From Streptomyces sp. NBC_00659 (lineage in GTDB: Bacteria; Actinomycetota; Actinomycetes; Streptomycetales; Streptomycetaceae), in contig NZ_CP109031.1 of NCBI RefSeq assembly GCF_036226925.1, positions 558,001-622,000 of the forward strand: DNA of 64,000 bases, given 5' to 3'. Of the stretch, positions 6,243-21,951 are shown one piece after another. Below the pieces are notes generated by a model. It was given only the letters and a program-made list of their open reading frames with translations. It searched no databases and was not told the DNA's origin. The first letter of the stretch is position 1; every line of letters begins with the position of its first letter. Both the position numbers and the translations under genes were made by a program.

Positions 6243-7535
6243 TCAGGCCGGGTGGCCGACGGTGCGGTGCTCGCCCGCGCTCGTGGTGCCCGGCGTGCTC
6301 CCGCGGGCTTCCACGGCGGCGCGAACACCGGTCAGCGTGTAGATCAGCGCCACGGCGGCCACGACCGCGAGCAGGGCGAGACCGGCCGCGTACGTGCCGT
6401 ACGCGCCGTACAGCGAACCCATCAGCAGGGGCGGCAGGAAGCCGCCGAGGCCGCCCGCGGCACCGACCACACCGGTGACCGAGCCGACCTGGTCGGCCGG
6501 GGTCAGCAGCGCCACCAAGGCGAAGACCGCTCCGCTGGCCGCACCGAGCGCGGCCGCCATGGCGAGGAAGGCGACGGTCCCCAGCGGCGCCAGCGCCGGT
6601 GTGGACGACTGCACGAGCGCTCCCGCCACCACCACGGCCAGCGAGCCGGCCACCACCCGCACCGGGCCGATACGGTCCGACAGCCAGCCACCCATCGGGC
6701 GCATCGCCACCGCGAGGAGCACGAACCCGGCCATGCGGTTCGCGGCGTCCGCCTGGGTCAGGCCGTAGCCGGTCTTGAGGTAGGTGGGCAGGTAGACGGA
6801 GAAGGCGACATAGCCGCCGAAGGCCACGGCGTAGAGCGCGGACGCCTGCCACGTGATGCCCAGCCTGGCGGTGGCGGCCAGCCGGCGGCCCAGCGGCTCG
6901 GTCGGGACGGTACGGCCGGGTGCGTCGCGCAGCAGCAGCGCGGCGACGACGGCGTAGACGGCCAGGACCGCGGCGGTGATCAGGAACGGTGTGGTCGTAC
7001 CGTGCGCGTCGACCAGCTTCACGGTGGTCAGGGCGCTGATGGCGGTGCCGCCCATGCCGGCGCCGAAGATGCCGATGGCCAGGCCGCGCCGCTCGGGCGG
7101 GAACCAGGCGTTCACCAGGGGCACGCCGACGGCGAAGGTGGTGCCACCGACACCGAGGAAGAACCCGCCGATCAGCAACGCGGTGAGGGAAGAGTGCCCG
7201 GCCAGGCCGAGGTAGAGCACCGGCAGGATGGTGACGGCCGACACGGTCGGGAACATGATGCGACCGCCGTACCGGTCGGTCAGCGCGCCGACCGGGACAC
7301 GGCCCAGGGAACCGACCACGACGGGCACCGCCACCAGCAGCGACTGCTGGAACGACGACAGCTCGAGTGTGTCCTTGAACCGGGGACCGAGCGGGCTGAC
7401 CAGGGCCCAGGCCCAGAAGTTCACGGCAAAGCCGACGGTGGCCAGAGCCAGCATCAGCCACGCCTGCCGGGACACCGGTGCCTCCGACGGCGAGCTGCCG
7501 TCCTTCGACTTCAATGGCTGGACCATGCTGTCCAT
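6243..7535 (-). CDS. narK: NarK-type nitrate/nitrite MFS transporter
   Basis: A 430-residue integral membrane protein of the major facilitator superfamily with about 12 hydrophobic helices. Nitrate-porter features include the early FAVNFWAWALVSPLGPRFK segment and glycine-rich helices such as GIFGAGMGGTAISAL and GVVGAAGGLGGFLPPL, which correspond to the nitrate signature motifs of the NNP family. It would import nitrate and/or exchange it for nitrite. ATG at 7535 is used; the next ATG three codons in is also possible because the purine-rich stretch lies very close. It is followed by hemerythrin. A dormancy-box-like palindrome lies about 115 bases upstream. Confidence 0.93.
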   Translation of the reverse strand: MDSMVQPLKSKDGSSPSEAPVSRQAWLMLALATVGFAVNFWAWALVSPLGPRFKDTLELSSFQQSLLVAVPVVVGSLGRVPVGALTDRYGGRIMFPTVSAVTILPVLYLGLAGHSSLTALLIGGFFLGVGGTTFAVGVPLVNAWFPPERRGLAIGIFGAGMGGTAISALTTVKLVDAHGTTTPFLITAAVLAVYAVVAALLLRDAPGRTVPTEPLGRRLAATARLGITWQASALYAVAFGGYVAFSVYLPTYLKTGYGLTQADAANRMAGFVLLAVAMRPMGGWLSDRIGPVRVVAGSLAVVVAGALVQSSTPALAPLGTVAFLAMAAALGAASGAVFALVALLTPADQVGSVTGVVGAAGGLGGFLPPLLMGSLYGAYGTYAAGLALLAVVAAVALIYTLTGVRAAVEARGSTPGTTSAGEHRTVGHPA

Positions 7536-7649
7536 CCCCTCCCTCTCACGGTGGTGCCGCAGCACCGGGATCCCCCAGGCACCGCAGGCCTCTCGCCGGC
7601 GGGCCGGAACCCCACCGACCACCATGGGCCCGCGTTCCTCCCCGTACAT

Positions 7650-7664
7650 GGGGCCATGAGTCCC
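7650..7664. promoter_or_regulatory. candidate DevR/OsdR-type dormancy box upstream of narK
   Basis: GGGGCCATGAGTCCC is an imperfect palindrome in the divergent gap between narK and the PNPOX-like gene. It resembles the DevR half-site pattern GGGxC...GTCCC and the sites in the narG control region. Assignment to a DevR-type regulator is inferred. Confidence 0.45.
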
Positions 7665-7789
7665 TGCCTCCCGGTCGGACGGTCCCTGATGAGGACCCAA
7701 CCGTTCCTCCACAAGGCCCCCTTCGCCTCCCCCGGACCAGGACCGCCCGGCCCTACACGGTCCTGGGCAGACGGAGAGGCGATGCTTCG

Positions 7790-8065
7790 ATGTCCCAGGA
7801 CGACGCCTTGCACGAACTCGACCGGCGGGAGTGCGTACGCCTCCCGGCCAAGGTCCCGGTCGGCCGCGTGGTGTACGCCCGACAGGCACTGCCCGCGGTC
7901 CTTCCCGTCAACTTCCGCCTGGACACGGACAGTTCTGTCCTGCTGCGCACCACGTCGGATCTCGTCCGCGTGACGGACGGCGCAGTCGTCGCGTTCGAGG
8001 CGGCCGGGCGCAGTCAGTGCGTCCGCCCGGTCCCCGTATCGGTCCGGATGTCAGTATCGATGTGA
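7790..8065 (+). pseudogene. truncated pyridoxamine 5'-phosphate oxidase-like flavin-binding protein
   Basis: The 91-residue frame starts MSQDDALHELDRRECVRLP and continues through PVGRVVYARQALPAVLPVNF and LLRTTSDLVRVTDGAVVAFE, the first two-thirds of an actinobacterial PNPOX-like split-barrel protein. Intact relatives are around 140 residues and continue with a GWSVVVTG strand. Here the reading departs from the family after VVAFEA into an Arg/Val-rich tail and stops. Its end overlaps the convergent Acg-type gene by 15 bases, which suggests a deletion joined them. Such proteins often belong to hypoxia regulons in actinobacteria. The short protein could still be made. Confidence 0.65.
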
Positions 8066-9067
8066 GCGATCTTCCGGATCCGGCCTCGTGGCAGAACCCG
8101 GTACGAGGTCTGCGCAGGCACGCGGTGTGGGGCCCGCGTCGGTGCCGTATCCGAAGCGGATGAGCACCTGCGGCCCGCACCGCCGCTTCGCTCCGGCCAT
8201 CGCGGCCCGCAGGTCCGGCCACTCCATCGCCTGGTGCAGCACCGAGGTACGCACCCCGCGCCGGGTCGCCGCGAGCAGCACTCGCTCCAGGGCCTGCCCT
8301 GCTCTCAGCCAGTCCTCCCGCCAGTCGTAGGGCGTCCACAACAGGGCCACCTGGGCGTGGCGTTCGAAACGCAGGGCCGGCATCCGCGGCACGGGCAGCC
8401 CGCCGGTGAAGTCACGCACCGGCATCCGGCCGGACATGTCCCGCGCGCCCAGGGCTGTGATCGGAACGCCGTACATCGCGTCGCTTCCCGGCACGGTGAT
8501 CCAGGTGCGCTCCTCGTCCGCGCGAGCCGGGTCGGCGGCGTTGCGGACCTCGGCCGCCTGCGTCAGGCGCAGCAGACGCCGGGTTCCGATGATGTCGGGA
8601 ACCTCCAGGTGCGCGCCCTCGGCCCGCGCCGAACTCGTCATCTCGAGCACGATCGGCTCCGGCACCGGGCGACCGGTGAAGGGCATCCTGCTCGTGTGTC
8701 GACGCTCGATCTGCTCGTACAGATCGCGCAAGGGCAACTGCGCGTCAGCGACAGGCCGAGCCAGCCGTACGGTGGCCAGCAGGTCCGGATCGTCCGGGGA
8801 CGGACAGAGCCGGACGACCGGATCCCAGCCGAGATGCTCGGCCGCCACCCGGAGGTTGAAGACGGCCGCGCCCACGGACAGGTGCTGGGCGCGCAGCCGG
8901 GGATCTGCCCTGGGCAGCGGTCGACGTCGGTCAAGACGGACCTGGATCAATCCGGTGTCCGGGTCCAGGCCGAACCGCCAGGGTTGCGTGTTGTGTATCG
9001 ACGGCGCCGCCACCGCCGCGGCCAGCAGGGCATGAACCGTTGCGGCGTCGGATTTCCGGGTCTGCAT
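8051..9067 (-). CDS. Acg-type nitroreductase-family FMN-binding protein
   Basis: A 338-residue protein with the tandem half-nitroreductase layout of the Acg family: AAVAAPSIHNTQPWRF near the N-terminus, RHTSRMPFTGRPVP in the middle, and VLLAATRRGVRTSVLHQAMEWPDLR in the second half. In Mycobacterium tuberculosis acg belongs to the DosR dormancy regulon and binds FMN without clear reductase activity. Its place beside nitrate respiration genes fits that. The ATG at 9067 has GAAGGAG upstream. A 10-bp inverted repeat follows in the 5' region. The C-terminal tail (SATRPDPEDRSHRY) overlaps the end of the truncated PNPOX gene and may be altered. Confidence 0.88.
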   Translation of the reverse strand: MQTRKSDAATVHALLAAAVAAPSIHNTQPWRFGLDPDTGLIQVRLDRRRPLPRADPRLRAQHLSVGAAVFNLRVAAEHLGWDPVVRLCPSPDDPDLLATVRLARPVADAQLPLRDLYEQIERRHTSRMPFTGRPVPEPIVLEMTSSARAEGAHLEVPDIIGTRRLLRLTQAAEVRNAADPARADEERTWITVPGSDAMYGVPITALGARDMSGRMPVRDFTGGLPVPRMPALRFERHAQVALLWTPYDWREDWLRAGQALERVLLAATRRGVRTSVLHQAMEWPDLRAAMAGAKRRCGPQVLIRFGYGTDAGPTPRACADLVPGSATRPDPEDRSHRY

Positions 9068-10295: not shown

Positions 10296-10742
10296 TCAGG
10301 TAGTGGGCAGGGCGGTGGCGAGCAGGACGACGCCGAGTGAGCCGACGAGGGAGACGACCGCCAGGGAACGGGCCAGATCCGGGCGGCCCCTGGCCTGGGC
10401 GATGCCGTGGCCCGCCGCGGCGATCATCACCACGGCGAACAGGGCGAGTTTGGCCGCCAGGGTGCGGCCGTAGCCGGGCTCGGCGAGCGAGGACCAGGTG
10501 ACGCCCCTGTGCCAGGCCATGGCCCAGCCCGTGCACAGCTGCACCGGAAGGAACACCGCCCCGGTCAGCATCCCGAACCGGCGACCCGCGGCGGAGGTGA
10601 AGCGGTCCTTGGGCTCCGGGGGGAGCAGACGGCGGGCCAGCGGCAGGATCACCAGGGACAGGGCCAGTTGCCCACCGACCCACAGGACGGCGCCCGTCAC
10701 ATGCGCGAAGCGCACCAGGGACCACCAGCCGACGGTGTCCAT
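10296..10742 (-). CDS. CopD-like integral membrane protein
   Basis: A 148-residue protein with four hydrophobic helices. It starts WWSLVRFAHVTGAVLWVGGQLAL, a histidine-bearing first helix of the type found in CopD/YjgN-like copper or haem membrane proteins, followed by FGMLTGAVFLPVQLCTGWAMAWH and LAAKLALFAVVMIAAAGHGIA. His13, His78 and His112 lie in or beside helices and could bind a metal or haem. Its ATG overlaps the stop of the NirK fusion (ATGA), so the two are translationally coupled, which suggests a role in copper supply or electron delivery to the nitrite reductase. Function is inferred. Confidence 0.75.
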   Translation of the reverse strand: MDTVGWWSLVRFAHVTGAVLWVGGQLALSLVILPLARRLLPPEPKDRFTSAAGRRFGMLTGAVFLPVQLCTGWAMAWHRGVTWSSLAEPGYGRTLAAKLALFAVVMIAAAGHGIAQARGRPDLARSLAVVSLVGSLGVVLLATALPTT

Positions 10743-13384
10743 CAGCCGCTCACCTCCACCATGCCGTGTGCGCCGGCCTCGGCGTGGCGCATGTCGTGGT
10801 CGACGAAGGCGTAGTGGCCGGCCTCGGGGAACGTCGTCTCGACGAAGCCGCCCTGCGCCGTGCCCAGGTCGAGCACTTGGGCGCCGCCCGCCTGGTCCGG
10901 CCGGAGCAGGTAGGCGCCCTCCTTGTACACGGTGTCGAAGACGGTGCCGACGATGTGGAAGGCGATGCCGTCGCTCGGCCCGGCGGCGACGACCCAGAAG
11001 CGCGCCCTTTCACCGGCCTTCGCCTTCAGGGGCCGCTGGGTGTACTGGTCGGCGACGCCGTTGAACACCCAGGCGTCCGGGGTGTCCTGGCGCATCTTCG
11101 TCACCTGGGCGGTACTGCCCGGCGTACCGAGGTAGAGCTCGGAGGAGACCAGTACGTATGCGTGGTCGACCTTCTTCAGGCCGGGCGGGTCGATGACGAC
11201 GGCGCCGTACATGCCGTTGCCCATGTGCTGGAGCATCGGTGCGGTGCTGCAGTGGTACAGCCAGGCTCCGGCCCTCTCGGCGCGGAAGCGGTAGACCAGG
11301 TGCTCGCCGGGCTGGATCGTGCGCATGGGCGTGTCGGGTGCGAGGGAGCCTGCGTGGAAGTCGATGCCGTGGCCCATGCCGGTGTCGTCGTTGACGAGGG
11401 TGACCTCGAAGACGTCGCCGACCCTGCCATGCAGGGTGGGGCCCGGCGCGGTGCCGCCGAAGGTCCACATCCGCTGCTTCACGCCCGGGGCCACCTCGAT
11501 CTCGGTGTGAGCGGCGTGCAGCTCGGCCCTGTGCACCGCACCGCCCGGCGCGGGGGCCAGGTCGGCGGTGCGTGGCTGCCAGCCGGTGGAGAAGTCGGCG
11601 GAGAGGTCCAGGCCGTCGGTGGCGGCGGCCGGCATGTGCCCGTCGTGTCCGGTCGGCGTGTGTCCCGTCCGTCCGGTGGCGGGCGTCGCCGTGCCTCCCT
11701 TCTTCACGACGATGTCCAAGGTCATCCCGGCCGCGCGGTGGCCCGGCAGGGTGCACCACGCCTGACGGCCCGTGGTGACCGGTCCGAGGTCGAGCACCCT
11801 GCTGTGCCCCTTGGCGAGCATCGGGGTGGCGGGGCCGTTCTCCACCTTGAGGTCGTGCCGCTGGGAGTCGGTGTTGGTGACCTTCAGCCGCAGGTCGGTG
11901 CCCGCCGCGACCTCGATCAGGGGCGGGCGGATCCGCATGTCGGCCAGGGTCACGGCGACGGTACGGCTCGCTCCGGAGCCCCCGCCCGCCGCCCCGGCGG
12001 CGACGTCCGAACCGCCCGCGCCGCCACCGCTGTTCGCCACCAGCACGGCCAGCACGGTCACCACGGCACCCGCGGCGGTGCCCCACAGCACGGGACGCCG
12101 TGCCCCGCCGGCCCGGCCGGCCTCCCGCAGGAGCCCGCGGCCGCTGCGGACGAGCACGGACACCACCAGGGCGAGGAACGCGGCCCCGGCCGTCCCTGCG
12201 AGGAGCGCGCCCGCGGTGCCGGCGGGGTGGGGCAGCGGCAGTGCCGACAAGGCGACGCCGAGGTTGAGGACGGTCAGCCGCAGCGGCCAGTACCGCTCCA
12301 GCATCGCCCTCAGCGCGGCCCGCTCCTTCGGGCCGGAGGAGAGCACGATGGGGAGGAGATAGGTCAGGGCCCCGAAGAGGACCTGGGCGACCAGCCCGAC
12401 GAGCAGCACCGGGATCAGGGAGCCGATGTCGTGCTGTACCTGCGCGAGCGGTCGCGCGACCAGGAGCCCCAGGTCGACGACCACGCCGACGGCCAGCCAT
12501 GCCAGGGCCGCGGCCAGCATCCACGCGGCGGCCGCCGAGATCGCGGGCCTCCTGCGCACCGTACGGGCGAACAGGTGCCCGGTGACGGCGACCCCGGCCG
12601 CGTACAGGGCCATGCCCAGTGCGGCGGCGGGACGCCGGCCGGCCGCCAGTCCGGCGACCGCGGTCAGCAGGCCGCCGCCGGTCAGCAGCAGCACCCGGCG
12701 CGCCAGCCGGGTGGTGCGCTCGGCCATGCGCACGCCGAGCACGGTGGGCCAGAGCATGAACAGCGTGCCCAGCACGGGCAGTCCGATCCAGCCGAGGAGC
12801 GTCACGTGCACATGGGCCAGCTTCAGCCCGGTGTAGTGCTGCGGGCCGGCCTTCCCGGTGGCCAGCAGCCAGCCCAGGACCGCCCCGACGATCAGCGCCG
12901 CCGCGGCCGCCCGGTAGTAGTCGGCGATCGGGGCGAGCCGTCCGCCGAGCGCTCCCCGGCCCATGCGGACGAGTACCACCAGGTGCGCGGTGATGCCGGT
13001 GACCAGCAGCGCACACCCGGCGCCGGTCAGGACAGGCAGATCCGTCCACACTCCGGTGAGGACACCCACCGCCCCGATGTTGACTCCGGCCAGCCGGCCG
13101 TTGCTCCACCGCCGGTCGGGCAGCCGGGTGTGGAGCATGGCGACCGCGAAGTGCTCGCTCCACACCACGATCGCCGTGGTCGCGGCGCCGAGCAGGAACA
13201 GGTGGATCGCGAGCCAGCGGGCAACCGGCAGCGTCTGCTGGGCACTCGCCGCCGACAGCGCGAGCACCGCCCAGGCCGCCACGAGTGCGTGGGCGGCCAG
13301 GTGACGGCCGCGTTGTCCGGACGCCTTGAACCTGCTGGGCGGTCGGGTACCGTCGGCAGCCGGTTCATCGTTCTTGCTGTGCAC
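10742..13384 (-). CDS. nirK: membrane-anchored cupredoxin/copper nitrite reductase fusion
   Basis: An 880-residue three-part protein. Residues 30-450 are about 12 hydrophobic helices with conserved-looking histidines (KLAHVHVTLLGWIGLPVLGT, VQHDIGSL). Residues 475-562 form a cupredoxin with a type 1 copper set, His510, Cys544, His549 and Met554 (WCTLPGHRAAGM). Residues 610-880 are a two-domain NirK of AniA style: type 1 ligands His672, Cys712, His720, Met725; type 2 ligands His677, His711, His863; catalytic Asp675 and His810. It should reduce nitrite to NO outside the membrane, taking electrons through the extra cupredoxin. GTG at 13384 is chosen for GGAG 4 bases upstream, giving a 20-base overlap with the radical SAM gene. 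Confidence 0.87.
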   Translation of the reverse strand: MHSKNDEPAADGTRPPSRFKASGQRGRHLAAHALVAAWAVLALSAASAQQTLPVARWLAIHLFLLGAATTAIVVWSEHFAVAMLHTRLPDRRWSNGRLAGVNIGAVGVLTGVWTDLPVLTGAGCALLVTGITAHLVVLVRMGRGALGGRLAPIADYYRAAAAALIVGAVLGWLLATGKAGPQHYTGLKLAHVHVTLLGWIGLPVLGTLFMLWPTVLGVRMAERTTRLARRVLLLTGGGLLTAVAGLAAGRRPAAALGMALYAAGVAVTGHLFARTVRRRPAISAAAAWMLAAALAWLAVGVVVDLGLLVARPLAQVQHDIGSLIPVLLVGLVAQVLFGALTYLLPIVLSSGPKERAALRAMLERYWPLRLTVLNLGVALSALPLPHPAGTAGALLAGTAGAAFLALVVSVLVRSGRGLLREAGRAGGARRPVLWGTAAGAVVTVLAVLVANSGGGAGGSDVAAGAAGGGSGASRTVAVTLADMRIRPPLIEVAAGTDLRLKVTNTDSQRHDLKVENGPATPMLAKGHSRVLDLGPVTTGRQAWCTLPGHRAAGMTLDIVVKKGGTATPATGRTGHTPTGHDGHMPAAATDGLDLSADFSTGWQPRTADLAPAPGGAVHRAELHAAHTEIEVAPGVKQRMWTFGGTAPGPTLHGRVGDVFEVTLVNDDTGMGHGIDFHAGSLAPDTPMRTIQPGEHLVYRFRAERAGAWLYHCSTAPMLQHMGNGMYGAVVIDPPGLKKVDHAYVLVSSELYLGTPGSTAQVTKMRQDTPDAWVFNGVADQYTQRPLKAKAGERARFWVVAAGPSDGIAFHIVGTVFDTVYKEGAYLLRPDQAGGAQVLDLGTAQGGFVETTFPEAGHYAFVDHDMRHAEAGAHGMVEVSG

Positions 13385-14639
13385 GGTGCTCCTTGCCGCC
13401 GGGGGCGGCGGTCGGACGGGGACGGACAGGCGGCTGCGCGTAGGCACCGCCGGCCAGCAGTGCGGCCAGTTCCCGCTGGTGGGGGAAGGACCCGGGGACG
13501 TAGCCGCACCACGGCTCCTCGGCGTAGGGGTCGCCGGTGACGCCGTAGGCGCGCGAGCGGGAGCCGCCGCAGACCCGGCGGAACTCGCACGCCCCGCACC
13601 TGCCGCCCAGCCTGCCCGCGTCCCGCAGACCGGTGAACAGTTCGGAGGTGCGGTAGATCTCCGTCAGCGGCCGCTCGCGAACGCTGCCCGCGCCGAGCGG
13701 CAGGAATCCGCTGGGGTGGACGGATCCGGTGTGCGAGACGAAGACGAATCCACGGCCCGCGTTGACGTCGAGCGGCGGACGCCTGACCCGGCGCGCTCCG
13801 GTGTCCAGTCCCAGGTCGGCGGCGCGGTCACGCAACTCCCTGTACAGCGGGCCGAGTCCCAGCACCGCGAGATGGTCGTCGCCCTTGTCCGCGAGGATCT
13901 GCCGCTGGAGCGCGACCCGGCGGAAATGATGGGCTTCGGTGGTCTTGGCGGGGATGGTCAGGCCCACGTCGTGGACGAAGTTGAGAACGTCCTCGACCTC
14001 GCCGGGCGTCAGCACGCCGAGGCCCCGGCCCCGGCCGGTGGGTACCAGGAAGAAGGCACTCCACAGCATCGCCCCGTGCTCGGCGACCAGGCGGACGATG
14101 TCGGGGAGGTCGTGCAGGTTGTGCCGGGTGACCGTGGTGTTGATCTGCACCTTCATACCGAGGGCGCGAGCCGTGTCCCAGGCGTCCAGGGTCCAGCGGA
14201 ACACTCCGGGCACTCCGCGGAAGGCGTCGTGGAGTTCGGCGGTGGAGCCGTCCAGGCTGAGGGAGAGCCCGGACGCGCCCGCGGCGTGCACGGCGCGCAG
14301 TCGCTCCGCGGTGAGCGTCGGGGTACCGGAGGGCGAGACGGCGACCCGGACCCCGATGCTCCTGCCGTAGGCGATGAGGTCCGTCAGGTCGGGGCGCTGG
14401 AAGGGGTCCCCTCCGGTGATCACGAACAGGGGGGCCGGCTTCCCGAAGGAGGCCACCTGGCGCAGCAGGTCCTGAGCGGCGACGGTGTCCAGTTCCCGCG
14501 GGTCGCGGTCGGGCACTGCCTCGGCACGGCAGTGGAGACAGGCCAGCGGGCAGGCCCGGGTGGACTCCCAGATGACGATGAAGGGCCGCTGCTCCGCGTC
14601 GTGGCGCTGACGGCGGATGGCGTGCGTGGCGGCGTTCAT
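13365..14639 (-). CDS. radical SAM/SPASM protein (TIGR04053-like)
   Basis: A 424-residue protein. The radical SAM cluster motif is Cys30-x3-Cys34-x2-Cys37 (ESTRACPLACLHCRAE), followed by the GGDPFQRPDL SAM-binding segment. The C-terminal CGACEFRRVCGG with further cysteines (EPWCGY) matches a SPASM-type auxiliary iron-sulfur domain. ATG at 14639 has GGAAGGA upstream. It is the first gene of an overlapping operon with the NirK fusion and the CopD-like protein, and diverges from narGHJI. Related proteins (NirJ, PqqE-like) modify haem d1 precursors or peptides; no haem d1 genes or precursor peptide are visible here, so the substrate is unknown. Confidence 0.85.
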   Translation of the reverse strand: MNAATHAIRRQRHDAEQRPFIVIWESTRACPLACLHCRAEAVPDRDPRELDTVAAQDLLRQVASFGKPAPLFVITGGDPFQRPDLTDLIAYGRSIGVRVAVSPSGTPTLTAERLRAVHAAGASGLSLSLDGSTAELHDAFRGVPGVFRWTLDAWDTARALGMKVQINTTVTRHNLHDLPDIVRLVAEHGAMLWSAFFLVPTGRGRGLGVLTPGEVEDVLNFVHDVGLTIPAKTTEAHHFRRVALQRQILADKGDDHLAVLGLGPLYRELRDRAADLGLDTGARRVRRPPLDVNAGRGFVFVSHTGSVHPSGFLPLGAGSVRERPLTEIYRTSELFTGLRDAGRLGGRCGACEFRRVCGGSRSRAYGVTGDPYAEEPWCGYVPGSFPHQRELAALLAGGAYAQPPVRPRPTAAPGGKEHRAQQER

Positions 14640-15118
14640 CGCGCGGTCCTTCCCGGCGTCCTGCGGGTGTGTCCGGCCGCCCTGGAGTCAGGGCAGACGA
14701 GCGGGGCGGCCGGACGGTGACCGGGCCGGACCGCGCGCGGCTCCCACCGTGAGCGGCAGCGGTGGGATCGGCCTCGAGGGCGGGCGATGTGGTCGTGCAC
14801 GGGATTCCTCCGAATCGGTCGCCGTCAGCGTCCACCGGCGGCGGTGGTCGGCGCGGCGGCCGATGGTCTTCTCGAACGGGGCCGATGGGCCCTTTTCCTG
14901 ACGGGTGCACAGGGCCGACGGTCCCTTTCGGCGACAGGCGTCCAGGGGTGCGAAGGTCCCCGTTCGCGGCAGTGGCGCCAGGCCCGGCCGCCGCCGACCG
15001 GACCCGGCACAGGGGCCGTTCGGCCCTGTTGCGACCGTCCGGAGTGGGCCGGAAAGCGGTCCGGCAGGGACGGCCGGACCCAAGTGCGCCGAGGTCCGTG
15101 GCGTCTAGCGTCCCAGCC
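14640..15118. promoter_or_regulatory. divergent control region of the nitrate and nitrite reductase operons
   Basis: A 479-base gap between the radical SAM/nirK operon and narGHJI. It holds a run of GGGCC...GGCCC-type imperfect palindromes: GGGCCGATGGGCCC at 14879-14892, AGGGCCGACGGTCCCT at 14911-14926, a weaker GGGG...TCCCC at 14945-14961, GGGCCGTTCGGCCC at 15013-15026, and GGGACGGCCGGACCC at 15067-15081. They resemble dormancy boxes of DevR/OsdR response regulators, known to control hypoxia and nitrate genes in actinobacteria. Spacing of about 32-50 bases suggests multiple dimers. Regulator identity is inferred; no such regulator lies in the window. Confidence 0.6.
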
Positions 15119-18100
15119 ATGGAGAACGATCAGAACGTACGAGGGCAGGCGTCGCGCGCCGGTGAGAGCTGGCCGCTGGCCGCCCGGCGGCTGCTCACCC
15201 GCCGTGAGGTGTCGGCCGACGGCCGCGCCGTGTTCGGCGAGGGCGACCCGAAGTGGGAGGGCTTCTACCGCAACCGGTGGGCGCACGACAAGGTCGTACG
15301 GTCCACACACGGCGTCAACTGCACCGGGTCCTGCTCGTGGATGGTGTACGTCAAGGACGGCATCATCACCTGGGAACACCAGGCCACCGACTATCCGTCG
15401 ATCGGCACGGACTGCCCCGAGTACGAGCCGCGCGGCTGCCCGCGCGGAGCGTCGTTCTCCTGGTACACCTACTCCCCCAGCCGGGTCCGCTACCCCTATG
15501 TGCGCGGCACGCTGCTGAAGATGTGGCGCGAGGCACGCAAGCGGCTCGGCGACCCGGTCGCGGCCTGGGCGGAGATCACCTCCGACCCGGCGAAGGCGCG
15601 GGCGTACAAGCGGGCCCGCGGCAAGGGCGGTCTGGTGCGCGCCGACTGGGACGAGGTGAGCGAGCTGGTCGCCGCCGCCCACGTCCACACGGTCAAGGCC
15701 TACGGTCCGGACCGGGTGGCGGGCTTCTCCCCGATCCCGGCGATGTCGATGGCGTCGTTCGCGGCCGGCACCCGGTTCATGTCGCTGATCGGCGGCACGC
15801 TGCTGTCGTTCTACGACTGGTACGCCGACCTGCCGATCGCCTCCCCGCAGGTCTTCGGCGACCAGACCGACGTCCCCGAGGCGGCCGACTGGTGGAACGC
15901 CGGCTACCTGGTGATGTGGGGCTCCAACATCCCCGTCACCCGCACGCCCGACGCGCACTTCCTCACCGAGACCCGTTACAACGGCACGAAGGTCGTCGCG
16001 GTCAGCCCCGACTACGCCGACAACGTCAAGCACGCCGACGAATGGCTCTCCCCGCACCCCGGAACGGACGGGGCGCTGGCGATGGCCATGGGCCACGTGA
16101 TCCTGCGCGAGTTCCTGGTCGACCGCGAAGTGCCTTACTTCCAGAAGTACTTGAGGACGTTCACGGACGCTCCTTTCCTGGTGACCCTGCGCGAGCACGA
16201 GCTGGGACTGGTCCCGGACGGGTTCCTGACCGCCGCCGACCTCGGGCACGACGAGGGGACCGAGGAGAACGCGGGGTCCAAGACCGTCCTCCTGGACAGC
16301 GTGACCGGCGAAGCCGTCGTGCCGAACGGTTCGCTCGGCTTCCGGTGGGGAGAGACCGGCGCGGGCCGCTGGAACCTCGAACTGGGCGATGTCGTACCCG
16401 AGTTGAGCCTGCTGGAGCGGGCCGAGGACACCGTCGCCGTCGCGCTGCCCCGGTTCGACGAGGGTGCCACCGAAGGCGGCTCGACGATGGTGCGCGGGGT
16501 TCCCGTCCGCAGGATCGATGGACGGCTCGTGACCACGGTGTTCGATCTGATGCTGGCCCAGTACGGCGTGGCTCGTCCGGGCCTGCCGGGCAACTGGCCC
16601 TCGTCGTACGAGGACGCGTCCGAGCCGTACACGCCGGCCTGGCAGGAGACGATCACGTCGGTCCCGGCCGAGCAGGCGGCCCGGATCGCCCGGGAGTTCG
16701 CCCGCAACGCCGAGCGCACCAACGGCCGTTCGATGATCGCGATGGGAGCGGGCACCAACCACTGGTTCCACTCCGACACCATCTACCGTGCCTTCCTCGC
16801 ACTGACCACCATGACCGGCTGCCAGGGCGTCAACGGTGGCGGCTGGGCGCACTACGTCGGCCAGGAGAAGGTCCGCCCGGTCACCGGGCAGCAGCACCTG
16901 TCGTTCGCCTTCGACTGGCAGCGGCCCACCCGGCACATGGCCGGCACCTCGTACTGGTACCTCAACACCGACCAGTGGCGCTACGAGGCCATCGGGCCCG
17001 ACGAGTTGGCGTCGCCGCTGGGCGAGGGACGCTTCGCGGGCAAGTCCACCGCCGACTGTCTGGCCCAGGCGATCCGCATGGGCTGGACCCCCGGTCACCC
17101 CGGCTTCAACCGCAACCCCCTCGACCTCACCGACGAGGCGGCCGCCGCCGGGCGTCCCGTCGCCGAGCACATCGTCGACGAACTCAAGTCCGGGCGGCTG
17201 CGGTTCGCCGCCGAGGACCCCGACGACCCCGCCAACTTCCCCCGCGTACTGACCGTCTGGCGGGCCAACCTGCTGGGCTCCTCCGGCAAGGGCAACGAGT
17301 ACTTCCTGCGCCATCTGCTGGGCACGGACGCGGCGGTCCGCTCCGAGGAGACCCCGCCCGAGGCACGCCCGCAGGACGTGGTGTGGCGGGAGGAGGCCCC
17401 CGAGGGCAAGCTCGACCTGCTGGTCACCATGGACTTCCGGATGACCTCGACCAGCCTGCTCTCCGACGTCGTCCTGCCGGCCGCCACCTGGTACGAGAAG
17501 GACGACCTGTCCAGCACGGACATGCACCCCTTCGTGCACGCCTTCACCCCGGCCATCGCCCCGCCCTGGCAGGCCCGCACCGACTACGACACGTTCCTGA
17601 CCATCGCCGACAAGTTCAGCGAACTGGCCGGTGAGCACCTCGGCACCCGCACCGACGTCCTGGCCGTACCGCTGCTGCACGACACTCCCGACGAACTCGC
17701 CCAGCCGGGTGGGGTCGTTCGGGACTGGAAGGCCGGCGAGTGCGAGCCGGTGCCCGGCCGGACCATGCCCAAGCTCGTCGTCATCGAGCGGGACTACGCG
17801 GCGGTGGCACAGAAGATGCGGGCCATCGGCCCCCTCCTCGACACCCTCGGCACCACCACCAAGGGCGTCACCGTCCACCCGAACCAGGAACTGGACGACC
17901 TGCGCCACCGCAACGGCACCGTCCGGGACGGAGTCGCCGCCGGGCGCCCCTCACTGGCCACCGCCTCCGACATGTGCGAGGCGATCCTCGCCCTGTCCGG
18001 CACCACCAACGGGCGCCTGGCCACCGAGGGCTTCCGCGAGCTGGAACGGCAGACCGGCAGCAAGGGTCTCGTGGAGCTCGCCGCCGAACGGGAGGGCGAG

Positions 18101-18826
18101 CGCATCACATTCGCCGACACCCGCACCCAGCCCCGCGCCGTGATGACGTCGTACGAGTGGTCGGGCAGCGAGGCCGGCGGGCGGCGCTACTCGGCGTTCG
18201 TCATCAACACCGAGCACAAGAAGCCCTGGCACACCCTCACCGGACGGCAGCACTTCTTCGTCCAGCACGACTGGATGGCCGAGTTCGGCGAACAACTCCC
18301 GGTCTACCGGCCCCCGTTGAACACGCCCAAGCACTACGGAGACGATCAGCTGCACGAGGACGGCCGGGCGGAGGTCACGGTCCGCTATCTGACCCCGCAC
18401 TCGAAGTGGTCCATCCACTCCAACTACCAGGACAACGCCCACATGCTGGCGCTGTCACGGGGCGGTCCGGTGATCTGGATGTCCACCGCCGATGCCGAGA
18501 AGATCGGCGTCAAGGACAACGAGTGGATCGAGGCGTACAACCGCAACGGTGTCGTCGCCGCCCGCTCCGTGGTCAGCCACCGCATGCCCGAGGGCACGGT
18601 GTACATGTACCACGCCCAGGACCGCAACGTGAACGTGCCGAAGACCGAGGTCAGCGGCAGGCGCGGCGGCATCCACAACTCCCTGACCCGCCTGCTGATC
18701 AAGCCCACGCATCTGGCGGGCGGCTACGCCCAGTTCACGTACGCCTTCAACTACTACGGCCCGACCGGCAACCAGCGCGACGAGGTCACCGTCATCCGCC
18801 GTCGCAGCCAGCAAGTGGAGTACTGA
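15119..18826 (+). CDS. narG: respiratory nitrate reductase alpha subunit
   Basis: A 1,235-residue molybdenum-bisMGD catalytic subunit that reduces nitrate to nitrite on the cytoplasmic face. The FS0 cluster ligands are His64, Cys68, Cys72 and Cys107, with exactly the spacing of the E. coli protein (4, 4, 35). The molybdenum ligand is Asp237 in SFYDWYADLP. The rest is full length, including the C-terminal SIHSNYQDNAHMLALSRGGP and GRRGGIHNSLTRLLIKPTH segments. ATG at 15119 is the start used; a longer open frame upstream would run through the control region. Its stop is one base before narH. First gene of the narGHJI-VKOR operon. Confidence 0.98.
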   Translation: MENDQNVRGQASRAGESWPLAARRLLTRREVSADGRAVFGEGDPKWEGFYRNRWAHDKVVRSTHGVNCTGSCSWMVYVKDGIITWEHQATDYPSIGTDCPEYEPRGCPRGASFSWYTYSPSRVRYPYVRGTLLKMWREARKRLGDPVAAWAEITSDPAKARAYKRARGKGGLVRADWDEVSELVAAAHVHTVKAYGPDRVAGFSPIPAMSMASFAAGTRFMSLIGGTLLSFYDWYADLPIASPQVFGDQTDVPEAADWWNAGYLVMWGSNIPVTRTPDAHFLTETRYNGTKVVAVSPDYADNVKHADEWLSPHPGTDGALAMAMGHVILREFLVDREVPYFQKYLRTFTDAPFLVTLREHELGLVPDGFLTAADLGHDEGTEENAGSKTVLLDSVTGEAVVPNGSLGFRWGETGAGRWNLELGDVVPELSLLERAEDTVAVALPRFDEGATEGGSTMVRGVPVRRIDGRLVTTVFDLMLAQYGVARPGLPGNWPSSYEDASEPYTPAWQETITSVPAEQAARIAREFARNAERTNGRSMIAMGAGTNHWFHSDTIYRAFLALTTMTGCQGVNGGGWAHYVGQEKVRPVTGQQHLSFAFDWQRPTRHMAGTSYWYLNTDQWRYEAIGPDELASPLGEGRFAGKSTADCLAQAIRMGWTPGHPGFNRNPLDLTDEAAAAGRPVAEHIVDELKSGRLRFAAEDPDDPANFPRVLTVWRANLLGSSGKGNEYFLRHLLGTDAAVRSEETPPEARPQDVVWREEAPEGKLDLLVTMDFRMTSTSLLSDVVLPAATWYEKDDLSSTDMHPFVHAFTPAIAPPWQARTDYDTFLTIADKFSELAGEHLGTRTDVLAVPLLHDTPDELAQPGGVVRDWKAGECEPVPGRTMPKLVVIERDYAAVAQKMRAIGPLLDTLGTTTKGVTVHPNQELDDLRHRNGTVRDGVAAGRPSLATASDMCEAILALSGTTNGRLATEGFRELERQTGSKGLVELAAEREGERITFADTRTQPRAVMTSYEWSGSEAGGRRYSAFVINTEHKKPWHTLTGRQHFFVQHDWMAEFGEQLPVYRPPLNTPKHYGDDQLHEDGRAEVTVRYLTPHSKWSIHSNYQDNAHMLALSRGGPVIWMSTADAEKIGVKDNEWIEAYNRNGVVAARSVVSHRMPEGTVYMYHAQDRNVNVPKTEVSGRRGGIHNSLTRLLIKPTHLAGGYAQFTYAFNYYGPTGNQRDEVTVIRRRSQQVEY

Positions 18827-18827
18827 C

Positions 18828-20384
18828 ATGCCCCGTGGCGAAGCCACCATCGGACGCGTCATGGCCCAGATCGCCATGGTGATGAACCTCGACAAGTGCA
18901 TCGGCTGCCACACCTGCTCGGTCACCTGCAAGCAGACGTGGACCAACCGCACCGGTGTCGAGTACGCGTGGTTCAACAACGTCGAGACCAAGCCCGGCGT
19001 CGGCTACCCCCGCCGCTACGAGGACCAGGAGCACTGGAAGGGCGGCTGGATGCTCGACAAGCGCGGACGGCTCGTCCTGCGCTCCGGAGGCCGTCTGAAG
19101 CGACTGCTGTCGCTGTTCTCCAACCCCGACCTGCCGTCCATCGAGGACTACTACGAGCCGGTCACCTACGACTACGACAACCTGGTCAGCGCCCCGGCGG
19201 GCCCGGACATGCCGGTGGCCCGCCCCCGTTCGGTCCTCACCGGCAAGCCCACCGCCATCACCTGGGGCGCCAACTGGGAGGACGGCCTCGGCGGAGCGGG
19301 CGAGAACGCCGGCGCCGACCCCAACCTCAGCAGCGAATGGGCCGAGAAGGTCAAGTTCGAGTTCGAGCAGACCTTCCTCTTCCATCTCCCGCGCCTGTGC
19401 GAGCACTGCCTCAACCCGGCCTGTGTGTCGGCCTGTCCGTCCGGCGCGATGTACAAGCGGGTCGAGGACGGCATCGTCCTGGTCGACCAGGACAAGTGCC
19501 GCGGCTGGCGGATGTGCGTGACGGCGTGCCCGTACAAGAAGGTGTACGTCAACCACGCCACCGGCAAGGCCGAGAAGTGCACCTTCTGCTTCCCGCGGAT
19601 CGAGGCCGGCCAGCCCACCGTCTGCTCCGAGACCTGTGTCGGACGCCTGCGCTACCTCGGACTGCTCCTCTACGACGCCGACCGGGTCGGCGAGGCCGCG
19701 GCCACCCCTGACGAGAAGGACCTGCTGGACGCCCAGCGCGGCGTCTTCCTCGACCCGCGCGACCCCGAAGTCATCGCGGCCGCACGGGAGTCCGGCATCC
19801 CCGAGGACTGGCTGGACGCGGCCCGCCGCTCCCCGGTGTACGACCTGGTCATGCGGTACAAGGTGGCACTGCCGCTGCACCCGGAGTACCGCACCCTGCC
19901 GATGGTCTGGTACGTGCCCCCGCTGTCGCCCGTGCTGGACGCCGTGGACGCGGCGGGCGGGAACCAGGACGACCCCGACCATGTCTTCGCCGCCGTCACC
20001 CGGCTGCGCATCCCGCTGGAGTACCTGGCGGAGCTGTTCACGGCCGGGGACGCGGACGTGGTCGGCGGAGTGCTGATGAAGCTCACCGCACTGCGTTCCT
20101 TCATGCGCGAGCGCACCCTGGGCGAGGAGGGTGACGAGGCGGTGCTCAAGGCCGTGGGCCTCACCGTCCGGGACGCGGAGGACATGCACCGGCTGCTCGC
20201 GATCGCGAAGTACGCCGACCGCTATGTGGTCCCCGCCGCGCACAAGGAGGACGCCGCCGCCCTCACCGCCATGGAGAACCGCTGCCCGGTCGAGTCGTCC
20301 GGCGCCCCGGAGGACACCGGTGGCGGACGGGTGATGCTCGGAATCCCCACCCTGCGCCGCAAGAACACCGGAGACCGACCGTGA
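18828..20384 (+). CDS. narH: respiratory nitrate reductase beta subunit
   Basis: A 518-residue electron-transfer subunit with four iron-sulfur clusters. The first set is Cys24, Cys27, Cys30 and Cys34 (DKCIGCHTCSVTCKQ). Later sets include CEHCLNPACVSACPSG and CRGWRMCVTACPYKK, where Trp replaces a Cys and so builds the [3Fe-4S] centre, as in E. coli NarH, and CTFCFPR. It passes electrons from NarI haem to NarG. The ATG is one base after the narG stop, and the end overlaps narJ by four bases. An internal start near residue 12 is possible. Confidence 0.98.
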   Translation: MPRGEATIGRVMAQIAMVMNLDKCIGCHTCSVTCKQTWTNRTGVEYAWFNNVETKPGVGYPRRYEDQEHWKGGWMLDKRGRLVLRSGGRLKRLLSLFSNPDLPSIEDYYEPVTYDYDNLVSAPAGPDMPVARPRSVLTGKPTAITWGANWEDGLGGAGENAGADPNLSSEWAEKVKFEFEQTFLFHLPRLCEHCLNPACVSACPSGAMYKRVEDGIVLVDQDKCRGWRMCVTACPYKKVYVNHATGKAEKCTFCFPRIEAGQPTVCSETCVGRLRYLGLLLYDADRVGEAAATPDEKDLLDAQRGVFLDPRDPEVIAAARESGIPEDWLDAARRSPVYDLVMRYKVALPLHPEYRTLPMVWYVPPLSPVLDAVDAAGGNQDDPDHVFAAVTRLRIPLEYLAELFTAGDADVVGGVLMKLTALRSFMRERTLGEEGDEAVLKAVGLTVRDAEDMHRLLAIAKYADRYVVPAAHKEDAAALTAMENRCPVESSGAPEDTGGGRVMLGIPTLRRKNTGDRP

Positions 20385-21172
20385 GCCCGCTGCCCGCAAC
20401 CATTCCCGCCCTCGTCCGCACCCGTGTCCGGGCGGCCGTACGCCGCCCGGCACGGCTCACGCCGCAGGAGGCCGAGGCGCGCACGCTGCTGCTGCGGCTG
20501 TGCTCGCTGTTTCTCCAGTACCCGGACGCCGAACTCACCGCCGCCCGGCCGGTCCTGACCGCAGCCGTCGAGGCGCTGCCCCCCTCACCCGCCGCCGAGG
20601 ATCTGGCCTCCTTCACGGCCTGGCTCGCCTCGCAGGAGCCGGACGCGCTGGAGCGCCACTACGTCGAGATGTTCGACCTGCGGCGCAAGAGCAGCCTCTA
20701 CCTCACCTACTACCTGCACGGCGACACCCGCCGCCGCGGGATGGCCCTGCTCACCCTGAACCAGCGTTACAAGGCCGCCGGCTGGGACACCGACGGGGGT
20801 GAACTGCCCGACCACCTCCCGGTCGTGCTGGAGTTCGCCGCCCTCACCGGCACCGGCCCGGGCGAGGCGCCGCTGCGTCAGCACCGGCGCGGACTGGAAC
20901 TGATCCACCAGGCGCTGAACGACGCCGACTCCCCCTACCGGCACGTACTGGGGGCACTGCTCACCCTGCTCCCGCCGCCCACCGAGGCGGACCGGGCCGC
21001 GGTGGCCCAGCTGATCGCCGAGGGGCCGCCCGACGAGGAGGTCGGACTCGACCCCTACGGAACCTACGGGGAGGGGGAGTTCGCCCCTCCCGGCACGTTC
21101 GTGCCCCCGATACCCGCCCCGCCGACCCGTGTGCCGGCCCACCCGACCAGCCGTACGGAAGGCCCCCGATGA
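20381..21172 (+). CDS. narJ: nitrate reductase molybdenum cofactor assembly chaperone
   Basis: A 263-residue all-helical chaperone of the NarJ/TorD family that binds apo-NarG and allows cofactor insertion; not part of the final enzyme. Typical segments are LLRLCSLFLQYPDAEL, LERHYVEMFDLRRKSSLYLTYYLHGDTRRRG and LPDHLPVVLEFAAL. GTG at 20381 overlaps the narH stop (GTGA) and the end overlaps the narI start. The C-terminus is proline-rich (PPGTFVPPIPAPPTRVPAHP), a common extension in actinobacteria. Confidence 0.97.
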   Translation: MSPLPATIPALVRTRVRAAVRRPARLTPQEAEARTLLLRLCSLFLQYPDAELTAARPVLTAAVEALPPSPAAEDLASFTAWLASQEPDALERHYVEMFDLRRKSSLYLTYYLHGDTRRRGMALLTLNQRYKAAGWDTDGGELPDHLPVVLEFAALTGTGPGEAPLRQHRRGLELIHQALNDADSPYRHVLGALLTLLPPPTEADRAAVAQLIAEGPPDEEVGLDPYGTYGEGEFAPPGTFVPPIPAPPTRVPAHPTSRTEGPR

Positions 21173-21951
21173 ACGCCCCGCTCCTCCCCGTGGCCGCCGC
21201 CTCCGTGAGCGGCGCCGGTCTGCTCCTGTGGGTCGCCGTCCCGTACATCTGTCTCGCGGTGTTCGTAGTCGGGCACATCTGGCGTTACCGGCAGGACCAG
21301 TTCGGGTGGACCTCCCGTACCAGCCAGCTCTTCGAACACCGCTGGCTGCGCTGGGCCAGTCCGCTGTTCCACCTGGGTGCCTTCATGGTGATCGGCGGAC
21401 ATGTCGTGGGGCTCGCGATCCCCGACTCGTGGACCGAGGCCGCCGGCATCTCCGAGCACGCGTACCACACCACGGCCGTCTGGGCGGGCTCGGTCGCGGG
21501 CGTCGCCATGGTCGCGGGGCTCGGCATGCTGTGCGCCCGACGGCTGCTGACCCGGCGGATCCGGCTGGGCACCGACCGCAGCGACAAGGTCCTCTTCCCG
21601 CTCCTGTCCGCCACCGTCCTGCTGGGCATCACCGCCACCGCCACGCACAACGTCTTCGGCCCCGGCTACGACTACCGTTCCACCGTCTCCGTATGGTTCC
21701 GTGGCCTGTTCACTCTCCAGCCGCAGCCGGAGGCCATCTCCGGGGCCCCGCTGCTGTTCCAGCTGCACGCCCTGAGCGCCTGTCTGCTCTTCGCCGCCTG
21801 GCCGTTCACCCGCCTCGTGCACGTGTGGAGCGCGCCGATCGGATACCTCGCCCGGCCGTACCTGGTCTACCGCAGGCGGACCGCACCGGCGACAGCCCCG
21901 ACGGCCGCGGGCCGGACCCGGCGGGCCTCCCACTCCGGGCGAGCCCGATGA
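21169..21951 (+). CDS. narI: respiratory nitrate reductase gamma subunit (cytochrome b)
   Basis: A 260-residue membrane subunit with five hydrophobic helices that oxidises menaquinol. The four haem-b ligands are visible and correctly spaced: His68 and His78 (FHLGAFMVIGGH, ten apart) and His200 and His218 (eighteen apart), as in the E. coli protein. ATG at 21169 overlaps the narJ stop and the end overlaps the VKOR start, so five genes are translationally chained. The arginine-rich C-terminal tail is probably cytoplasmic. Confidence 0.97.
   Translation: MNAPLLPVAAASVSGAGLLLWVAVPYICLAVFVVGHIWRYRQDQFGWTSRTSQLFEHRWLRWASPLFHLGAFMVIGGHVVGLAIPDSWTEAAGISEHAYHTTAVWAGSVAGVAMVAGLGMLCARRLLTRRIRLGTDRSDKVLFPLLSATVLLGITATATHNVFGPGYDYRSTVSVWFRGLFTLQPQPEAISGAPLLFQLHALSACLLFAAWPFTRLVHVWSAPIGYLARPYLVYRRRTAPATAPTAAGRTRRASHSGRAR

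Follow-up and report, generated by a model that had tools for sequence, protein, structure and literature searches.

A copper nitrite reductase fused to an oxidase-fold membrane domain in Streptomyces, with a possible built-in electron path

How do Gram-positive actinobacteria, which are not known to have a periplasmic pool of soluble cytochrome c, supply the copper nitrite reductase NirK with electrons? The question is raised by a gene in a 64,000-nucleotide stretch of the Streptomyces sp. NBC_00659 genome (contig NZ_CP109031.1, positions 558,001 to 622,000), here called the window. This gene (10742..13447, reverse strand) encodes an oxidase-fold membrane domain, a cupredoxin and a NirK in one chain. 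We consider the chances slightly better than even that its product is a membrane-bound, nitric oxide (NO)-forming copper nitrite reductase with its own electron-transfer module, in which electrons would pass from a respiratory donor to a haem b, on to the coppers and finally to nitrite. In this proposal we infer the haem, quinol as the donor, the electron route, the reduction of nitrite and a control of the hypoxia or NO type.

Copper domains of the fusion protein

The initial annotation had described a fusion of a polytopic membrane domain, a cupredoxin and a NirK, and this architecture was borne out by the open reading frame and the domain matches. Read from the most upstream GTG at 13447, the protein has 901 residues; a shorter listed version starts at 13384 and has 880. 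Residues are numbered here on the 901-residue form, and the numbers of the initial annotation are these minus 21. A 624-residue protein of Streptomyces yanii (P0047) has the membrane domain and the cupredoxin without NirK, and may be genuine or truncated.

The cupredoxin domain, recognised by a Pfam Cupredoxin_1 match and by its conserved ligands, comprises residues 492-582 (11702..11974, reverse strand) and has a complete type 1 copper site (H531/C565/H570/M575). The NirK domain, recognised by TIGR02376, alignment and Foldseek, follows at residues 626-901 (10745..11572, reverse strand). Its type 1 ligands (H693/C733/H741/M746) and type 2 ligands (H698/H732/H884) were present, as were D696 and H831 of the active site. 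The conservation of these residues was read from alignment A3, which holds 82 full-length sequences, the fusion protein under study included. D696 and H831 were found in 82/82 and the other named copper and catalytic residues were likewise kept in all sequences, except for the axial M746, which is Met in 76 and Leu in 6 and represents a natural variant of the site. Every copper and catalytic residue that had been claimed for NirK and for the second type 1 site was found.

TIGR02376 matched residues 638-901 with an E value of 3.7e-46 and 158 bits, which is under the NCBI cut-off of 296.3; this cut-off was passed in only 5 of 396 genomes of the phylum. When the full-chain model was searched with Foldseek, the three-domain cupredoxin-NirK of Hyphomicrobium denitrificans (PDB 2dv6, 6tfo) was the best match, covering the cupredoxin and NirK parts at residues 494-901. 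Judged from its sequence and predicted structure, the C-terminal domain would qualify as a NirK by its type 1 and type 2 ligands, its Asp and His and its fold.

Fold of the membrane domain and the proposed electron path

The structure prediction of the full chain, which had been suggested as a check, gave NirK matches alone in the fold search, and the membrane domain was then modelled separately. Modelled alone with AlphaFold2, residues 43-443 (12119..13321, reverse strand) matched the 12-helix fold of haem-copper-oxidase subunit I. The initial estimate of about 12 helices was correct: 12 form the core and a predicted 13th (residues 452-473; 12029..12094, reverse strand) leads to the outside. 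Two histidines were invariant in 66/66 aligned sequences, H82 in helix II (codon at 13202..13204) and H212 in helix VI (codon at 12812..12814, both on the reverse strand). The conserved histidines of the initial annotation were therefore confirmed for these two, whereas the other histidines of the domain are not conserved across the wider family. H82 sits in helix II where the oxidases carry the low-spin haem histidine, an equivalence by helix order and not by residue-level superposition. Both histidines are placed close to the outer face, and Met and Cys are absent from the invariant columns. These results support the view that the membrane domain carries cofactor-like histidines, an oxidase fold being reduced to the invariant pair H82 and H212.

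The histidines of an oxidase active site were searched for in the same 66 sequences. No column with at least 6 His was found in helix VII (residues 243-268), where the CuB/FeB histidines would lie; H212 of helix VI is present without its two helix VII partners of this set. The haem histidine pair was not found in helix X (residues 344-369) either, where the sole column with at least 6 His is that of Y363 (6/66). With the established ligands of helices VII and X missing, the domain probably does not act as a conventional O2 or NO reductase, and an active reductase was rejected as the main interpretation. A related possibility is that an oxidase- or NO-reductase-fold module binds, channels or consumes the NO released by the attached NirK. 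We regard this as improbable, since without conserved His in helices VII and X there is no CuB/FeB triad and no known high-spin haem ligand. In addition, the genome has two globin matches in frames of about 400 residues, probably flavohaemoglobins, which could remove the NO instead.

The domain was also compared with NnrS (PF05940), an identity that found no support: none of the 20 A1 members matched at E<=1, and a search of the genome was uninformative, its controls being unmatched too. Four other loci, L196, L197, L198 and L200 (genomes G025, G006, G021 and G036), gave COX1 scores of 141, 130, 130 and 99 bits, and their oxidase region has no HH or HxH motif; they apparently belong to another oxidase subunit I family without metal ligands.

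We propose that H82 and H212 most likely hold a haem b near the outer face of the membrane. Electrons of the respiratory chain, most simply from menaquinol or else from another respiratory donor, would reach this haem in the oxidase-fold domain and would then move on to the cupredoxin's type 1 copper. From there they would move to the type 1 and then to the type 2 copper of NirK, which would convert nitrite to NO outside the cell. The nitrite could be provided by the Nar enzyme encoded next to the fusion gene.

Electron supply and pairing of the membrane domain with NirK

Other possible donors were searched for in the 9.66-Mb genome. The COX1 search returned two oxidases and the fusion domain and nothing further; no NorB was seen, although no search specific for NorB was made. 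PF13442 detected a single cytochrome c frame of 270 residues with two domains, probably QcrC, and Cupredoxin_1 one protein besides the fusion. The PF13442, Cupredoxin_1, COX1 and globin profiles, the only ones used, revealed no soluble cytochrome that could donate electrons to NirK.

The occurrence of the membrane domain was then compared with that of NirK in the 396 genomes. The domain was found in 56 of them (E<=0.001). Eight of these genomes carry it fused to NirK, and in the remaining ones that were fetched it is a separate protein, mostly of 400-540 residues. NirK profile matches (E<=1e-25) were obtained in 57 genomes, and both occurred together in 40 genomes, with 8.1 expected. When the 8 fused genomes were left out, 48 had the domain, 49 had NirK and 32 had both (5.9 expected; Fisher p 5e-23, shared ancestry uncorrected). 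In 7 of the 48 genomes with the unfused domain the two matches lie within 5 kb.

A survey of the architecture, also suggested initially, was run in named genomes, and 80 loci taken from 107 matching ones gave 43 fusions and 37 unfused domains. The named full-length relatives among the matches listed (120 of 652) include members of Mycolicibacterium, Rhodococcus, Saccharomonospora, Modestobacter and Streptomyces. NirK adjoins 6 of the 37 unfused loci, three in Nitriliruptoria and kin (L109, L112 and L128) and three in Chloroflexi (L126, L132 and L133). The first three share their contigs with G326, G097 and G172, which are among the seven genomes with both matches within 5 kb. All NirK ligands were present in five of the six adjoining proteins, and in L109 a Gln is aligned at the axial Met. 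The ligands are also complete in L046 (G025, another of the seven), and at L035 and L116 a different copper oxidase takes the place of NirK. In a tree of 77 domains a single change explains the fused rows with 99/99 support, and four ungrouped unfused rows fall within the fused part. The co-occurrence, the adjoining unfused pairs and the single-change tree together show a pairing of the domain with NirK that is wider than the fusion and probably older.

A constant partner of the unfused protein other than NirK was rejected, as 20 scanned neighbours were mixed (MopB, a pyridoxal phosphate (PLP) enzyme, a GAF kinase, glutamine synthetase and others, some unmatched). At L034, L038, L042 and L043 a NarG-like match lies near the unfused membrane gene, and in L034 and L038 Pfam confirmed this match as a molybdopterin oxidoreductase. 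Several copies of about 400 residues are labelled 'nitrite reductase (NO-forming)' by JGI; some of these come from short contigs and may be fragmentary.

These distributions also bear on whether the membrane domain is an anchor only, a cofactor-free relic of the oxidase fold that holds NirK at the cell surface, while the bcc complex or a different carrier delivers the electrons. The domain is missing from some actinobacterial NirKs, according to the accessible part of a 2016 paper (PMC4770552), and 17 of the 57 NirK-matching genomes gave no domain match; both points speak for an anchor. However, H82 and H212 are invariant within membrane helices, a separate gene that tracks NirK is not needed by a mere anchor and 12 helices far exceed what anchoring requires. 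We judge an anchor to be rather unlikely. The oxidase fold, the co-occurrence of the unfused form with NirK and the single cytochrome c frame favour a built-in electron path, and the path within one chain that the initial annotation had proposed has gained indirect support.

Several observations weigh against this path. The helix X haem ligands are absent, and in the oxidases the haem partner of the helix II histidine sits on helix X. If the domain keeps the canonical geometry of the oxidases, its histidines in helices II and VI might be too distant for one haem; a haem shared by H82 and H212 is the weak point of the proposal. The kinship with the oxidases is also weakly supported at the sequence level: hmmscan at E<=1 matched COX1 in 1 and ccoN in 2 of 20 members, a search of PDB sequences with the domain profile gave no match at E<=1, and the profile-pair E value was 0.0043 against COX1 and about 0.001 when wider oxidase sets were used. 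Among the 56 genomes with the domain, 16 have no NirK match (E<=1e-25), and NirK in the 396-genome count means profile matches, with ligands verified in few cases. Unfused copies also adjoin unrelated genes, namely for PLP, GAF kinase and MopB enzymes. Finally, the accessible text of PMC4770552 states that the N-terminal cupredoxin of Hyphomicrobium NirK is too distant for electron transfer and that a copper-site mutant of it showed higher activity.

A bolder form of the proposal is possible but doubtful. A haem-copper oxidase core would have lost its active site and become a quinol:cupredoxin carrier, whose haem would sit between helices II and VI, a position without precedent. In Actinomycetota and Chloroflexi this carrier would serve NirK as its general partner in the membrane; one lineage would have fused the two, and the fusion would be the first NirK fed straight from the quinol pool. 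If the proposed electron path is real, a well-known enzyme has a new wiring that draws electrons straight from the membrane, oxidase cores are reused as plain electron carriers and the unfused gene is identified as a NirK partner in many genomes.

Neighbouring genes and known systems

The start of the fusion gene overlaps a gene for a TIGR04053 radical SAM/SPASM protein (13365..14639, reverse strand; 487.6 bits, cut-off 395) and its stop overlaps one for a CopD-like membrane protein of 148 residues (10296..10742, reverse strand), whose match to CopD does not reach the Pfam cut-off. Divergent from this operon lies narGHJI for respiratory nitrate reductase (15119..21951, forward strand; narG from the ATG at 15119). 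Of the 43 fusion loci, some of which are cut by contig ends, 30 had the radical SAM gene immediately upstream, 33 had the CopD-like gene downstream and 25 had a NarG match. Homologues of the Acg-family (Rv3131-like) flavin mononucleotide oxidoreductase (8051..9067, reverse strand) and of the major facilitator superfamily transporter (Pfam MFS_1; 6243..7889, reverse strand) occurred in 23 and 18 of these loci. From its gene context the transporter may carry nitrate or nitrite. A GH92 glycosidase with a ricin-type lectin domain (22702-25476) is unrelated to the fusion gene.

The radical SAM protein has weaker matches to AhbC/AhbD/NirJ, and a gene of this kind shares an operon here with a copper nitrite reductase. 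Such a reductase does not require haem d1. In the bolder form of the proposal, the enzyme might modify the putative haem of the membrane domain. TIGR04053 was above its cut-off in 32 of the 396 genomes, and 17 of these hold the domain (4.5 expected); 82 genomes match at E<=1e-80, and the comparison uses the 32 only. In the distant genome G347, 568 bases separate a TIGR04053 gene from an unfused match to the membrane domain. In Catellatospora (L089, 13902-17240) a TIGR04053-like gene and a second NirK frame were seen about 3.4 kb and 6 kb from the fusion gene.

In the CopD-like protein, H14 and H112 are kept in 33/34 copies and resemble a haem-binding pair, so that a small haem b subunit is possible. 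Together with the membrane domain, the CopD-like protein could instead supply the cupredoxin and NirK with copper, a role in assembly and not in catalysis. The frequent downstream position of its gene speaks for such loading, but the membrane domain has an oxidase fold and not that of a copper transporter, its invariant columns contain no Met or Cys and the CopD match is itself under the cut-off. We give copper loading very little probability.

The 479 bases between the two operons (14640..15118) form a divergent promoter region with three OsdR/DevR-like palindromes (14879-14892, 14912-14925 and 15013-15026). The window has five GGGMC-N4-GKCCC boxes, these three and two at 7651 and 9906. As a whole it is not enriched (5 against 2.6 expected, reached by 12/100 shuffles), and a looser pattern, with one mismatch allowed, is rarer than chance (60 against 93). 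Three boxes within 479 bases would still be unusual, with about 0.02 expected by simple arithmetic for a tight pattern that was picked after the cluster had been seen. Among 21 homologous divergent regions, 15 contained the box, which was six times as dense there as elsewhere in the same loci. The OsdR consensus is AGGGCCGATCGGCCCT, and narG2 of S. coelicolor is a predicted OsdR target, as given in the accessible part of PMC5069765. The boxes suggest a hypoxia- or NO-type control of the NirK operon. In S. coelicolor no gene for an NO-forming nitrite reductase was found, according to the accessible part of PMC4766573; our finding points to NO formation in those Streptomyces that carry the fusion, beside a control region of the OsdR type.

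The architecture itself had been printed in 2016, when a NirK of about 900 residues with a membrane domain 'of unknown function' was described in Propionibacterium acnes and other actinobacteria (PMC4770552). It has the same order of a membrane domain of about 400 residues, cupredoxin and NirK. By the initial annotation, a published description of the same architecture and function would refute its proposal; for the architecture one exists, whereas the accessible text of that paper gives the function as unknown, and the fold, the unfused form and the association of the domain with NirK were not met in it. Literature searches, in which most subscription papers were outside reach, returned no mention of the oxidase fold, of the two-histidine pattern or of an unfused companion of NirK. 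The H. denitrificans protein (2dv6, 6tfo) shares the cupredoxin and NirK but has no membrane domain, and the copper domains are arranged otherwise in the fusion model (root mean square deviation above 10 A over both parts). In Chloroflexi, NirK likewise occurs with additional electron-transfer domains, cupredoxin and cytochrome (PMC8756737), although there the added domain is a c-type cytochrome, known from few identical sequences of metagenome-assembled genomes, and no oxidase-fold partner was met in the accessible text. In the SAR11 nirK-cbb3 region (PMC12816887, accessible part) NirK is also near an oxidase-family gene, but this belongs to a full cbb3 operon several genes off and is not a fused or degenerate core. 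CcoN of cbb3 and NorB are 9-12 % identical to the membrane domain, which lacks their CuB/FeB site and helix X haem ligands. The quinol-dependent NO reductase qNOR (PDB 8zgp and 6qq6 in the fold search) we take to be a functional parallel, in which an oxidase-fold core with extra domains allows quinol to serve as the donor. In qNOR a working haem/FeB site reduces NO, whereas in the fusion the reductase would be the added copper enzyme.
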